DNA of 41,568 bases, taken from positions 1 to 41,568 of IMG/VR virus record IMGVR_UViG_3300009684_001816; one strand, written 5' to 3'. Shown here in pieces: positions 3,407-38,952 of the stretch (position 1 is its first letter; the number at the start of each line of letters is the position of its first letter). Both the position numbers and the translations under genes were made by a program. This DNA comes from a virus. Below the pieces are notes generated by a model that did not search any database, was not told the origin of the DNA, and saw nothing but the letters and a program-made list of their open reading frames with translations.

Positions 3407-5137
3407 TTATCTTTTCTTTTTACCTGATTCATTTTCCTGCGAATCTGCAAATGGATTGTTGGCACGAAGATTAGCACCACCAGTTGGATTTGATACTACA
3501 TCTTTTACTTTTGCTTTATCGTCGAGTCCAGCACCACCATCATGTCTACTGCCAAGCATAATATCATTGCTACTACGACCTTCGTCGTCATCGTGTTTAC
3601 CAGCTGACATGTATTTGCGCATTATGGGATCGTCAGTATTTTTCATAAGACGACCAACGGCATCTTTATGAACGGCCGACTGTTGTCTTTCTATACCACG
3701 CTGTAGATTATCTGCATCCGAACGATTTCTGCTATCTGGCTTAACTAGCATCTCTGGTGTTTTTGGCTTAGATGATGTAGGTGTAGGCTCTGGTGTTGGT
3801 GCCTTTGTTTCAGATGGTTTCGTATCATTTTTTGAAGCTACTGGCTCAGATGCTTTCGGTGTAGAAGGTTCATCAGCTGGCTTGTTCATATTTTGAGAAA
3901 GATCTGGTCTATCGGCCATAGCTTTTCTAGTTATAGGACCAATTATACCATCTCGTTGTTTGGGGCTCATACCAAGAGATGTCTGCAATCTTATAACATC
4001 TTTTCTACCTTCAGCAATAACTCTTTTAATTGTCGTTAATGTTGATTCTTTTGGTGTCATTTTTTTATAAACCTTTGTTAATTCGTCGCTTCCAACAAAA
4101 CGACTGTTTGGCTTCCTAAAATCTTTTGAAGTTTTCTCTGCGCCTTCATAACGCTCTTGCATCTTTTCACGTTCTTTTTTCTCTTTTTCCATTTTTTTAT
4201 GGAAAGTTTTTCTATGTCCTGCATTTGGATCTTCAGGATTCCATGGCTGCTCCATAGATACCATGTGTCCTGGCGTTTTTCCGATTTTTGATTTGCCATC
4301 TTCGGACTCTTTAATGGTGTTTATTTTACCACCTTTTGCAAGAAATTGTTTAACGAGTTCGTCGCTTGTATCTCTGGTAATTTTATCCTGAGGGTTTTTT
4401 GCCGCTTTTGCTTTGGCTCGTTTTAATTTTAAGAAAGTTCTACCTTGTTCCATATATTTGTCAGAATATACTTCATCTAACCCATTAGATTTTTTATTAA
4501 TAGCCGAAGGTCTGGCACATGAACCTGGAGCACATGGTTTAGTACCCGGGACACGCTTGTATCCATCCCAGCAGTTACATGTTTTTTCTTGAAGTTCAGC
4601 TTCTTCTTTGTGACAATTCCACTTACGTAATGATAATGTTTTACGAGTCGGTTTGCCATTCGGTTTATATTTTGGCCCTTCAACTTTACTCATACGTGCA
4701 CAAAATGAATTTCGGCGACCTTCAGCTTCTGATCCAGGTGTTATTTCTGATGGAGGTTTGGTAACTGGTTTTTTTAAATTACTGCCATATTTTTTATTAA
4801 AGTAATTACGACCAGCTTGGTTTAACCCACCAGTTGGATTTTGAAACTTTTTAGCAACTTCGGATATTAGATCTTCATCAAGCATAGTAGCAAAACCTCC
4901 GGCAATAAAAGAATTAACACGTTCAAATGCAAATTGTTCCGGAGTCTCACTGAATGTGGATTTCCAGATTGAATAACCACGACGATATACTTCTTCAAGA
5001 ATATCGGTCGAGATACCTGATTTTTGAGATTTTTTATAAAGCGATAGCTTTTGCTCGTTAGTGAGACTTATGTCAGAGCCTGCAAAGTGTTCAGCAACTA
5101 CTGACTGTGGTTCGAATGTTTTAAATTTTTTTACCAT
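3407..5137 (-). CDS. 576-aa virion-type protein with SFCARM/LRKWNC motif and PG-binding-like segment
   Basis: The N-terminal 110 residues contain LEEVYRRGYSIW and EQFAFERVNSFIAGG, a block I know from many T4-like phage proteins of unknown function. A second familiar phage motif, RRNSFCARM...SLRKWNC, is near residues 140-175 and is followed by a Cys cluster (CNCWDGY...CAPGSC) that could bind metal. Around residues 379-412, LQTSLGM...DGIIGPITRKA resembles the PG_binding_1 peptidoglycan-binding motif. The rest is Pro/Thr/Lys-rich, and the protein ends ESGKKKR. The start has an AAGGGAAA ribosome site. A virion role (core, tail-associated or injected) is inferred. Confidence 0.75.
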   Translation of the reverse strand: MVKKFKTFEPQSVVAEHFAGSDISLTNEQKLSLYKKSQKSGISTDILEEVYRRGYSIWKSTFSETPEQFAFERVNSFIAGGFATMLDEDLISEVAKKFQNPTGGLNQAGRNYFNKKYGSNLKKPVTKPPSEITPGSEAEGRRNSFCARMSKVEGPKYKPNGKPTRKTLSLRKWNCHKEEAELQEKTCNCWDGYKRVPGTKPCAPGSCARPSAINKKSNGLDEVYSDKYMEQGRTFLKLKRAKAKAAKNPQDKITRDTSDELVKQFLAKGGKINTIKESEDGKSKIGKTPGHMVSMEQPWNPEDPNAGHRKTFHKKMEKEKKEREKMQERYEGAEKTSKDFRKPNSRFVGSDELTKVYKKMTPKESTLTTIKRVIAEGRKDVIRLQTSLGMSPKQRDGIIGPITRKAMADRPDLSQNMNKPADEPSTPKASEPVASKNDTKPSETKAPTPEPTPTSSKPKTPEMLVKPDSRNRSDADNLQRGIERQQSAVHKDAVGRLMKNTDDPIMRKYMSAGKHDDDEGRSSNDIMLGSRHDGGAGLDDKAKVKDVVSNPTGGANLRANNPFADSQENESGKKKR

Positions 5138-5235: not shown

Positions 5236-7209
5236 TTATCTAAATGAACGAAAAGATGTCCACGCTTCTTTTATTGCACGAGCTTTAGCTTTTTTTGGTT
5301 TAACTTCTTGTGGAGTATTAATGTCATTAAATATCCTTTCGGCACGGTCGTAATTAGCTGGTGGTAAAACTTTTTTAAGTTCTTCTGGTGATTTTGCAGC
5401 ACGTGCTGCTGTTCCAGAAACACCGTCCATTCCCTGTGCGCCAGATTTTCTTTCCCCACCAACTTGATGAAAATGCACATTAAATCCATGTTCACCTTCC
5501 ACATCTTTATAATCTCTAAGTCGATCCGCCATAGTTTTACGATCTGAACCACCATAAATTGTAACAGATCCTCTTTTACCGGAATTCCACATATCACGAA
5601 GCGCATGAAATGGTGTTACTGTTGGACTTACATTCACATTAGGGCCAGCAGCATTTTTTATATCATCAATTTTATTTTCAATTGGTATTGGACGGCCTGT
5701 TGATTTTGTTACGAAAACATTATTAGAATCATGGCCTGCATTTTGCATAGTATTAACTACGCTATGATGCGCTATTGTATATGGAGAAAATCCACCAATT
5801 ATAACACCATGAGAACCAGGTTTTTCAACATCTTCTTTAATTGGCGCTGCTAGTGCAGGTGTGGGTGATGGAGCCTCTGAAGCTGGAGCTGTTAATTTGG
5901 CAGAAGCTTGTCTTTGTGCAACTGCACCGCCACCAGTTAAATTATATTTGGTAAACCAAGGATTTGCTGCTTTATTATAACTTGTTGTGCCATCTGGATG
6001 GTGAAGAGTAACAACTAAACCTTCTCCTTCTGATGCTTCGCCATTAATACTTGTGCTAAATGGTGAATTTTTAGCCGCAACTTTTCTAAGCACTTCTTGT
6101 GCATTTTTAAAATGATTCATTAAATCGAAAGAGTTTTTAATATGGTGTTGATTGGCAATAACATCAGCTACATTATCTGCATGTTTTCTAGACTCGTTGT
6201 TTTTAACTTTGTCGGATAATGGTTTTGCTAATCTTGCAGCTGATTTTGAATTTAAATGATCAATATATCCTTGTACAGAAGGAGTAAGATCGTTTCTAAT
6301 AGTATGAGACATATAAGATTCTATATTTTCACCATGACGACGCATAACATCGTTAAACCCATTTCCTGGCGAATCTTTACTATCTTCTTTTATTTTAGAA
6401 TATGTTTTTGCAGCGTTTTTCATATGCAATGCATATTCAGCTTGTTCTTCAGGTGTATAATTTTGAGGATTAACATTCACAGTTGGATCCATATTATGGA
6501 CATCTGGATGATCTACAAATGAATCTCTAGTTTTTTTATCAATAGGTTCTGCACCAGATTTTGGTGTATACTGGCTATGTAAAGCAATGATAATTTTTGC
6601 ATTTTTTGCTTTAATACCTTCTGGTGTATCTTTACCAAAATGATATGCTATTGCATTCGGAAGTATTGAATGCTGATGGGCGTCGCTATGAAGTTCGCTA
6701 GGATCGCCCATATAATCTCCGGAGAAAATTTTCGGACTATCTGGTAATATTTTACCGCCATGATCAAGTAGTCTATGCATTTTATCAGCAAGACCAGGAG
6801 CGTGACCAAAAAGTCTATCAATATCTTCATGTGTTGACGCCATTTTGTCTTCTGATATTTTTCCGTCTTTTCCCACAGCGCCCTTATAACCAACGCTAGT
6901 TACGCCCCTATGTTTTCTTATAAGGAATGAAGGCGACCCCTCCATTTTTTCAGTAACAGTAACATTATTTGGTACAGCCGCACCACGAAGATGATTATGG
7001 GCATATCTAAGCATTTTATCGGTCATAGCAATACCTGCATCACCGCCCGTTGATTTTTCTTCATCGGTAGGTGGTAAAATTTCACCAGTTGTTTTGTTTT
7101 TTCTTGGTTTAGCAAAAACAAACATCGATCTATGCGCATGTGTAATATGTCCAAGTTTAGTTCCTGGATCAGATGCATCTTCTGTAAGAAAACTTTTAAA
7201 ATTAAACAT
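5236..7209 (-). CDS. Ligase-like nucleotidyltransferase fused to a cytidylyltransferase-like domain
   Basis: Two domains are visible in this 657-residue protein. Residues about 80-425 look like the covalent nucleotidyltransferase (DNA/RNA ligase) fold: K88-M-E90-G resembles motif I (KxDG/KxEG), SGDYMGD near 163 could be motif III, and EGEGLVV (394-400) followed by K413/K421 could be motifs IV and V. After a Pro/Ala linker, residues 468-630 contain GGFSPYTIAHH and later VSGTAAR, the HxGH-like and (I/V)S-S/G-T-x-x-R signatures of cytidylyl/adenylyltransferases such as NMNAT or CoaD. The N-terminus MFNFKSFLTE resembles a T4 capsid-targeting peptide. Substrates are unknown. It overlaps the next gene start by one base (TAATG). 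Confidence 0.7.
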   Translation of the reverse strand: MFNFKSFLTEDASDPGTKLGHITHAHRSMFVFAKPRKNKTTGEILPPTDEEKSTGGDAGIAMTDKMLRYAHNHLRGAAVPNNVTVTEKMEGSPSFLIRKHRGVTSVGYKGAVGKDGKISEDKMASTHEDIDRLFGHAPGLADKMHRLLDHGGKILPDSPKIFSGDYMGDPSELHSDAHQHSILPNAIAYHFGKDTPEGIKAKNAKIIIALHSQYTPKSGAEPIDKKTRDSFVDHPDVHNMDPTVNVNPQNYTPEEQAEYALHMKNAAKTYSKIKEDSKDSPGNGFNDVMRRHGENIESYMSHTIRNDLTPSVQGYIDHLNSKSAARLAKPLSDKVKNNESRKHADNVADVIANQHHIKNSFDLMNHFKNAQEVLRKVAAKNSPFSTSINGEASEGEGLVVTLHHPDGTTSYNKAANPWFTKYNLTGGGAVAQRQASAKLTAPASEAPSPTPALAAPIKEDVEKPGSHGVIIGGFSPYTIAHHSVVNTMQNAGHDSNNVFVTKSTGRPIPIENKIDDIKNAAGPNVNVSPTVTPFHALRDMWNSGKRGSVTIYGGSDRKTMADRLRDYKDVEGEHGFNVHFHQVGGERKSGAQGMDGVSGTAARAAKSPEELKKVLPPANYDRAERIFNDINTPQEVKPKKAKARAIKEAWTSFRSFR

Positions 7210-22195: not shown

Positions 22196-22456
22196 CTATT
22201 CGAAACATTCCTGATCATACACCGGACGATTATACCGATCATATCCTATAATACATACATCGGGTATACGCTGGCGCTGGTTATAAATTGTAGCACCGAG
22301 AATACCCAAGCCAAGAATACCTAAACCAACACCGACACCAACATTATTATTACGTTGATGATTATAGTGATGGCGTTGATGATAATGTCGACGATCATGG
22401 GCAAGAGCCGGCACAGAAATACTTGCCAGTATAAGACCAATTAATATATTTCTCAT
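22196..22456 (-). CDS. Exported His-rich protein with glycine-rich membrane segment
   Basis: The N-terminus MRNILIGLILASISVPALA is a clear signal peptide with an ALA cleavage site. It is followed by a His/Arg/Asn-rich stretch (HDRRHYHQRHHYNHQR), a glycine-zipper hydrophobic segment (VGVGVGLGILGLGILGATIY) and a short tail with two Cys. It is likely periplasmic or envelope-bound. His-rich exported phage proteins could bind metal or act in superinfection exclusion, but nothing here proves either. Confidence 0.75.
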   Translation of the reverse strand: MRNILIGLILASISVPALAHDRRHYHQRHHYNHQRNNNVGVGVGLGILGLGILGATIYNQRQRIPDVCIIGYDRYNRPVYDQECFE

Positions 22457-22632
22457 CGTGCATTCTCCAAAATAGGATTACCGACCATCTGATAAGAGAG
22501 AGGACCAGAACGAACCGCACGGATATACTTAACAGCTTCTGAAAAAGTATTGAACTTCTTGCTGTAATCCGTGAGCAAACCACCATTTTCGGCTTGCTTT
22601 ACCGTATACGTAACCTTGTATCGTTCAACCAT
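22453..22632 (-). CDS. Small protein (59 aa), unknown
   Basis: The start is the ATG at 22632, 7 bases after AAGGAG. An upstream in-frame ATG at 22650 would place that site inside the gene. The sequence MVERYKVTYTVKQAENGG...FNTFSEAVKYIRAV looks like a small alpha/beta fold. It is transcribed from 22657-22685 and overlaps the exported-protein gene by 4 bases. Confidence 0.7.
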   Translation of the reverse strand: MVERYKVTYTVKQAENGGLLTDYSKKFNTFSEAVKYIRAVRSGPLSYQMVGNPILENAR

Positions 22633-22656: not shown

Positions 22657-22685
22657 ATTATACCTTAGATATCAAAATAAGTCAA
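22657..22685 (-). promoter_or_regulatory. Early promoter overlapping the ArfA-like stop codon
   Basis: Minus strand TTGACT (22685-22680), 17-base spacer, TATAAT (22662-22657). The -35 box shares bases with the stop codon and hairpin of the ArfA-like gene. Confidence 0.9.
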
Positions 22686-22801
22686 GCGTTTTTACGCTTT
22701 CTCTTATAGCTACCACGACCTTTTTTCGGCCGGACGATACGCTGTTTGAATTTCCCAGAGGCGAGATCTCGTGCTATAGGATTAATTTTCCTGTTCATCA
22801 T
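22682..22801 (-). CDS. ArfA-like alternative ribosome-rescue factor
   Basis: The 39-residue basic protein contains ARDLASGKFKQR followed by KKGRGSYKRKRKN. This matches the core of ArfA, in which a helix ending F-R/K-Q-R-V/I precedes K-K-G-K/R-G-S-Y-x-R-K. ArfA enters the empty mRNA channel of ribosomes stalled at a message 3' end and recruits RF2. E. coli ArfA is active as a form of about 55 residues; this one starts just before the core. AAGGA lies 5 bases before the ATG; a second ATG follows at once. It has its own promoter and ends in a hairpin at the stop. A generic basic peptide is the alternative, but the motif order is specific. Confidence 0.75.
   Translation of the reverse strand: MMNRKINPIARDLASGKFKQRIVRPKKGRGSYKRKRKNA
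22684..22699 (-). promoter_or_regulatory. Hairpin at the 3' end of the ArfA-like gene
   Basis: Minus strand AAGCGT, AAAA loop, ACGCTT is a perfect 6-bp stem formed by the last five sense codons and the first base of the TGA. A T-rich stretch (TTATTTT) follows. In E. coli, arfA carries a hairpin in the coding 3' end that yields nonstop mRNA, making its synthesis depend on failure of tmRNA. Confidence 0.6.
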
Positions 22802-22827
22802 CTTGTTCCTTCAAAGCGACAGTACTG

Positions 22828-22855
22828 ATTATACTCGTCTCGTAAAAAAAGTCAA
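22828..22855 (-). promoter_or_regulatory. Early promoter of the ArfA-like gene
   Basis: Minus strand TTGACT (22855-22850), 16-base spacer, TATAAT (22833-22828). It is divergent from the plus-strand promoter at 22924; the 68 bases between hold a GTATC/GATAC inverted repeat. Confidence 0.9.
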
Positions 22856-38170: not shown

Positions 38171-38424
38171 TGTATATGATTAAGATTACCCAAGAAGTTA
38201 AAGAAGAGATGGTTCTTTCCACAATTAAAGATGATTATACTTTGATTTGTAAAGATATCGCTTCATTGAAAAATCGAACTGATCTTCCACCGCATCTTCA
38301 TGAAGATCTTATCCAAGATTGTGTTCTTAAAAAAGCTATGGAAATTCTTCTTAAGTATTACATGCCTGTTGCTGAAGCTGAAGATTATATCAAGAAAACA
38401 CTTGACGAATGTAAACTTTTGTAG
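38170..38424 (+). CDS. Small helical protein (84 aa), unknown
   Basis: Helical, with the central segment DLPPHLHEDLIQDCVLKKAMEILLKYYMP. It overlaps the 140-aa gene by one base. The promoter of the tmRNA lies inside its last codons. No family recognised. Confidence 0.68.
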   Translation: MYMIKITQEVKEEMVLSTIKDDYTLICKDIASLKNRTDLPPHLHEDLIQDCVLKKAMEILLKYYMPVAEAEDYIKKTLDECKLL

Positions 38425-38435
38425 TATAATAAATA
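38402..38435 (+). promoter_or_regulatory. tmRNA promoter, early type with overlapping late-like box
   Basis: TTGACG (38402-38407), 17 bases, TATAAT (38425-38430). AATAAATA at 38428-38435 overlaps it and matches 7 of 8 positions of the late consensus, so the RNA may be made both early and late. Confidence 0.78.
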
Positions 38436-38436
38436 C

Positions 38437-38708
38437 TATGCTAAGGTTGTTGAGACGTAAGGAATAGGTCAGTAAGACTCGGGGGCGGTACCCGACGCCT
38501 CCACCATATGTGCTAGAGATAGTTCACTCTACAGTCTGTGAAGTCAGACCACATATGATGGGGGCGAAATAGGCTCGATTATTGATAGTAAAGGTACGAG
38601 TAGACCAAGGCTGATATAAATGCAAACGATAACTTTGCACAGGAATTCGCTCTAGCAGCGTAATCACCTTGGGTATGGGTTCCACCTAGAAACAGAACGG
38701 ACCTATTA
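38437..38708 (+). ncRNA. ssrA: Circularly permuted two-piece tmRNA
   Basis: The acceptor half (to 38506) ends in a T-stem TCGGG/CCCGA, then CGCCTCC and ACCA. A 53-base spacer follows, closed by CATATGTG/CACATATG (38505-38512 with 38550-38557). The coding half starts at 38560 with GGGGGCG, which pairs with CGCCTCC. The third pair is G:U, the alanine identity element. GGCTCGA follows, as in tmRNA 5' domains. The tag frame is 38622-38663: ANDNFAQEFALAA-stop. AATAGGTC (38463-38470) pairs with GACCTATT (38700-38707), joining the two halves. With host SmpB and alanyl-tRNA synthetase it would rescue stalled ribosomes and tag proteins. Confidence 0.93.
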
Positions 38709-38748
38709 ACACACAGTGCATAATGCACAAACACACAGGAGACTAAAA

Positions 38749-38952
38749 ATGAACCCGTATGAAATGCGTTTTAACTATTTCCATGCTGCCCGTGATTTGC
38801 TTATCGGTGAGTATCAGGCTAATTTTGCAGAAATTCAGTATTGTGAAGATAAAGAAGAAAAGAATAAACGATTTTCTTCCTTAAAGTATCCTAGTCGGCA
38901 AGATATCTTTGCTCTTGCCGAACAGATCAAAGACTTTACAGATAAGAAGTAA
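38749..38952 (+). CDS. Small conserved T4-like protein (67 aa)
   Basis: MNPYEMRFNYFHAARDLLIGEYQANF...YPSRQDIFALAEQIKDF matches a small helical protein found in many T4-like phages of marine bacteria, opening MNPY-(x)2-R and ending with A-x-x-(I/L)-x-x-F. The function is unknown. A GTGCA/TGCAC hairpin lies at 38716-38728 in its leader. AGGAG precedes the start. Confidence 0.82.
   Translation: MNPYEMRFNYFHAARDLLIGEYQANFAEIQYCEDKEEKNKRFSSLKYPSRQDIFALAEQIKDFTDKK

Follow-up and report, generated by a model that had tools for sequence, protein, structure and literature searches.

Does a phage arfA-like gene that ends in a hairpin at its stop codon use the nonstop-mRNA switch known from E. coli? 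In E. coli arfA, RNase III cleavage or termination at a stem-loop yields nonstop mRNA, and the full-length ArfA is unstable owing to its hydrophobic tail (PMC3989581). The original prediction had transferred this switch to a phage that also carries a tmRNA gene, and had proposed that the two genes form a primary-plus-backup circuit of ribosome rescue. We examined the gene, its hairpin, its promoters and its relatives.

The arfA-like gene and its product

The gene is located in a virus record whose whole stretch of 41,568 bases was analyzed, hereafter the window. The window encodes a T4-like DNA polymerase with about 50% identity to cyanophage gp43, and the source of the gene is a tailed phage. 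The predicted 39-aa ORF with an ArfA core was found as described at 22682-22801 on the minus strand, with an ATG start, a TGA stop and the product MMNRKINPIARDLASGKFKQRIVRPKKGRGSYKRKRKNA. Direct reading placed a ribosome-binding site, AAGGA (22807-22811, minus strand), 5 nt ahead of the first ATG. The ArfA-like identity was borne out by Pfam, in which the product scored 33.4 bits against the PF03889 (ArfA) profile with a curated cut-off of 25.5. This was the sole ArfA match on the contig, and it was confined to model positions 22-43 of 44, the C-terminal half. When the product was searched against solved structures with phmmer, six distinct sequences were returned, all of them ArfA; the solved E. 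coli chains (5mgp, 5h5u and others) aligned to product residues 6/7-38, ending at E. coli residue 45. NCBIfam profiles gave no match to the product, PHROGs gave weak matches to unnamed families, and a tblastn search of named phages with the 39-aa product gave no match; a longer relative used as the query retrieved five records. The PF03889 cut-off was passed by most phage relatives, including L013, L199, L085 and Caulobacter phage Cr30. Moreover, the gene was under purifying selection, with pN of 0.13 and pS of 0.99 between the window and L199 (dN well below dS), and 0.03 and 0.39, respectively, between L034 and L050. Judged by its sequence, the 39-aa product is a member of the ArfA family.

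The product retained the core of E. coli ArfA (YhdL), FKQRI...KKGRGSYxRK, which aligned to the ribosome-bound chains, with F18, Q20, R21 and the whole KKGxGSYxRK tail in place. In this alignment the basic mRNA-channel motif of ArfA, KKGKGSYxRK, was present as KKGRGSYKRK, and F18 matched E. coli F25 of the RF2-activating patch (L19, L24, F25). Of the residues through which E. coli ArfA contacts RF2 according to PMC5378476, F25 was the only one retained, and D12 and K17 occupied the positions of L19 and L24. The weaker N-terminal patch suggests caution over RF2-dependent rescue. The E. coli gene differs in that its 72-aa product has a hydrophobic tail and a long RNase III stem-loop lies within its ORF, whereas the window gene is stop-coded and lacks the hydrophobic tail of the nonstop-regulated E. 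coli type. Its ORF ended at the equivalent of E. coli residue 46 (offset 7), with the C-terminus KRKRKNA. E. coli ArfA is active when truncated at Asn47 and inactive when shorter (PMC5378476). Asn47 lies 6 aa beyond R41, and the window product, one residue short of this reported minimum, is at about the length of the shortest functional ArfA. In 87 ArfA-like genes the tail beyond SYx[RK] was mostly 5-6 aa, which coincides in position with the E. coli minimum.

The hairpin and the promoter at the arfA stop codon

The perfect 6-bp hairpin said to abut the stop codon was present as AAGCGT-AAAA-ACGCTT at 22684-22699 (minus strand), and was built from the final five codons plus the first base, T, of the TGA stop. 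Its fold energy was -5.4 kcal/mol versus -39.9 kcal/mol for the 3' region of E. coli arfA, in which a long stem lies inside the ORF; the 41-nt context of the hairpin folded at -9.1 kcal/mol, with a z of about -3. A stem of at least 6 bp reaching the stop arose in 1.5% of synonymous versions of the gene end, which is nominally unusual. Such stems numbered 129 in the window compared to 59-88 across ten first-order Markov resamplings, and one lay near the stop in 5 of 49 window genes, a list of ORFs of our own selection. We found that a stem reached the stop in 3 of the 87 distinct ArfA-like genes of phages and SAR11, versus 6.5 expected from first-order Markov resampling, and so was no commoner than chance. 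The hairpin was absent from the arfA stop in all seven relatives examined closely (L013, L034, L050, L211, L085, L199 and Cr30, listed as L207).

The arfA gene is preceded by the promoter TTGACT-16-TATAAT (22828-22855, minus strand), an arrangement shared by L085. A second promoter, TTGACT-17-TATAAT (22657-22685, minus strand), serves the next gene, with the arfA stop TGA falling inside its -35 box. This overlap was common to the syntenic L013, L034, L050 and L211. The overlap explains why the terminal GCTTGACTT is conserved, and we consider it likely that the -35 box, not the hairpin, is the element selected at the arfA stop. The small downstream gene (MVERYKVTYT..., 22453-22632, minus strand) was syntenic with arfA, with arfA-adjacent homologues in L085 (46% identity) and L013. 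In L013, L034 and L050, a common endolysin gene lay a few kilobases away from arfA, and the same small gene followed arfA; L211 retained the small neighbour plus the following gene, and L085 kept the promoter-arfA-promoter-gene order of the window plus one extra small ORF. Near-identical TTGACT-16/17-TATAAT promoters occurred 11 times in the window versus 0.32 expected, and these eleven are probably the promoter set of the phage. One of them, with TTGACG, precedes the tmRNA (38402-38430). An inverted repeat, CTTGAC...GTCAAG, spanned the -35 box to the spacer of the downstream promoter in L013 (1682-1710), L034 (253-281), L050 (306-334) and L211 (6129-6157); it is possibly an operator in these relatives, and it was not present in the window.

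The simplest reading of the locus, and in our judgment a likely one, is a stop-coded minimal ArfA with its own strong promoter, outside tmRNA/trans-translation control. The gene would be transcribed from a strong sigma70-type promoter of the near-identical phage set and translated to a normal stop codon, with no nonstop processing. When a ribosome stalls on a broken mRNA, the basic tail KKGRGSYKRKRKN would insert into its vacant mRNA channel, and phage ArfA would recruit host RF2, leading to peptide release. The hairpin would probably be incidental; at best it would act as a weak terminator. Since the coding sequence does not extend past the functional core, nonstop processing would not be needed and tmRNA control would be escaped. 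The rescue activity, the RF2 dependence, and the expression and timing of phage arfA are what we infer from this arrangement.

The E. coli-style switch of the original prediction, in which RNase cleavage of the hairpin, or its action as an intragenic terminator, gives a nonstop arfA mRNA that trans-translation silences until tmRNA fails, appeared very improbable. In favour of the switch, the hairpin does exist and is nominally uncommon when synonymous gene ends are sampled, E. coli arfA and Bacillus brfA use the same logic (PMC8012679, PMC3989581), and a tmRNA is encoded on the same contig. However, in place of the long intra-ORF stem-loop that yields nonstop mRNA in E. coli, the window has only a 6-bp stem at the stop, which is far weaker than its E. 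coli counterpart, is missing at the same locus in relatives and is not enriched in the family; what is conserved at the stop is the -35 box. Because the hairpin abuts the stop, a transcript terminated beyond the stem would still include the stop codon. Nor is there a hydrophobic degron tail to remove, and a cut inside the hairpin would give a protein below the functional minimum, and loss of these residues is expected to inactivate the minimal protein because E. coli ArfA is inactive if shorter than Asn47 (PMC5378476). Another possibility, compatible with a stop-coded minimal ArfA, is that the hairpin together with an outer AUAAG/CUUAU pairing forms a weak intrinsic terminator just past the arfA stop and insulates the next promoter. 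The hairpin plus CUUAUUUU was flagged as terminator-like, the 41-nt context folds with the low z noted above, and stems lie over the stop in several other window genes; but the T tract is short and broken (CTTATTTT), and relatives with the same arrangement lack the hairpin, so that we regard this terminator as unlikely. Somewhat less probable again is an ArfA-derived peptide that binds the ribosome without rescue, for example by inhibiting or redirecting host translation or by titrating RF2. The poorly conserved RF2-activating patch and the presence of the basic motif in larger phage proteins would fit such a peptide, whereas the retention of F18, Q20, R21 and the entire KKGxGSYxRK tail does not, and the fact that most of the SAR11 chromosomes sampled have one such gene each (see below) fits housekeeping rescue better than a phage-only inhibitor.

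tmRNA and ArfA on one phage

A permuted tmRNA of alphaproteobacterial type was identified by ARAGORN and Rfam (RF01849/RF04321) at about 38414-38754 on the plus strand, with the tag ANDNFAQEFALAA. The RF01849 match scored 114.8 bits, and the molecule had G3-U70 in its acceptor stem, a CCA end, a permuted tRNA-like domain and a tag ending in ALAA. It has its own promoter and is on the opposite strand to arfA, about 15.6 kb away. The proposed circuit held in that tmRNA and ArfA occur on one phage, and failed as a conserved unit. Six contigs in our set were tmRNA-positive (the window, G001, G005, G006, G014 and G025); ArfA passed the Pfam cut-off in two of them, the window and G025, and G006 had a shortened form that fell below it. 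No conserved tmRNA and ArfA pair was seen among these six, although the absence of ArfA is weak evidence because several of the contigs are fragments. Searches for SmpB, RF and ArfB genes in the phage contigs gave no match in those covered. The circuit is accordingly corrected to a phage gene that looks like ArfA minus the nonstop switch. If so, phages could contribute RF2-dependent rescue in the course of infection, irrespective of tmRNA. The host is presumably an alphaproteobacterium, as suggested by the tmRNA type; no bacterial genome searched carried the exact phage tag ANDNFAQEFALAA, and phages can carry tmRNA unlike that of their host (PMC9004378).

ArfA-like genes in other phages and in SAR11

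Phage-borne ArfA has already been reported, in pelagiphage HTVC027P (gp30, PMC12753301) and in Citromicrobium phage RXM (g10, PMC8953757). HTVC027P gp30 is likewise a short PF03889 protein of an alphaproteobacterial phage, but the phage is of another type (57.6-kb genome), has another gene neighbourhood, and no alpha tmRNA was found in its genome. RXM, likened here by annotation, also infects an alphaproteobacterium and differs as a 104-kb phage with a siphovirus name, vB_CbaS-RXM. Among bacterial rescue factors, Bacillus BrfA is similar in function as an RF2-recruiting rescue peptide, but shows little similarity to the ArfA sequence and is produced from a terminator-truncated nonstop mRNA (PMC8012679, PMC8874680). 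Francisella ArfT resembles the phage gene in lacking nonstop-processing control (PMC8874680), but has almost no sequence homology to ArfA and uses RF1 or RF2.

A scan of IMG/VR with a PKKGxGxYxxK-type pattern gave at least 120 matching stretches; those listed included many short ArfA-like ORFs, and others were larger proteins with an internal motif. PKKGKGSYxRK was embedded in longer phage proteins in L086, L101, L109, L124 and similar contigs, as well as in L098, L163 and L184, and one such protein of 119 aa scored 32.9 bits for PF03889. Since the motif also sits in larger phage proteins, it is by itself no proof of rescue function. Caulobacter phage Cr30 contained an unannotated tail-less ArfA-like ORF at 2501-2597, ending KPRKGKGSFTRKGK, with a core that lies between two annotated genes and a PF03889 score of 27.3 bits for its translation. 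In the T4-like relatives L212 (6043-6200), L213 and L214 (both 6004-6160), a shortened ArfA-like ORF, RVVASRKGYKRK, without a Pfam ArfA match, ran directly into tRNA-Arg(TCT); an RNase P cut at the 5' end of the tRNA would therefore leave a nonstop arfA mRNA.

A pattern search of bacterial genomes gave 35 matches, of which 34 were Pelagibacteraceae. Among 148 sampled Pelagibacteraceae (SAR11) genomes, 127 had a single PF03889 match each, 88 of them over the cut-off, compared with 10 of 385 class-sample genomes. A review confines ArfA to a subset of beta/gammaproteobacteria (PMC8874680), a survey recorded arfA in none of 2,376 alphaproteobacterial genomes (PMC11633108), and no report of a chromosomal SAR11 ArfA was found in the open-access literature. 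Seven SAR11 genomes (G033, G034, G036, G037, G038, G137 and G414), some incomplete, encoded one or two RF-1-domain proteins of about 350 aa each and no ArfB-sized third one, so that ArfA may stand in for ArfB in these genomes; SmpB was present in six of the seven. We tentatively propose, with slightly more room for doubt than for belief, that many phages and SAR11 use a switch-free, stop-coded minimal ArfA independent of tmRNA, which in SAR11 perhaps replaces ArfB, and that alphaproteobacterial phages bring ArfA to hosts mostly without it. The ArfA family also reaches into SAR11, among the most abundant marine bacteria, in the class for which the survey had recorded no arfA.

The tail-less ArfA-like ORF was located on 34 SAR11 contigs (L218-L252 except L246), for example at 6510-6554 on the minus strand of L235 and at 4841-4885 on the plus strand of L240. 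At 31 of these 34 loci it abutted the 3' end of an antisense, convergent gene ending IGAR-like; at L235 and L240, the two loci that were read completely, this gene encodes a PfkB-type kinase.
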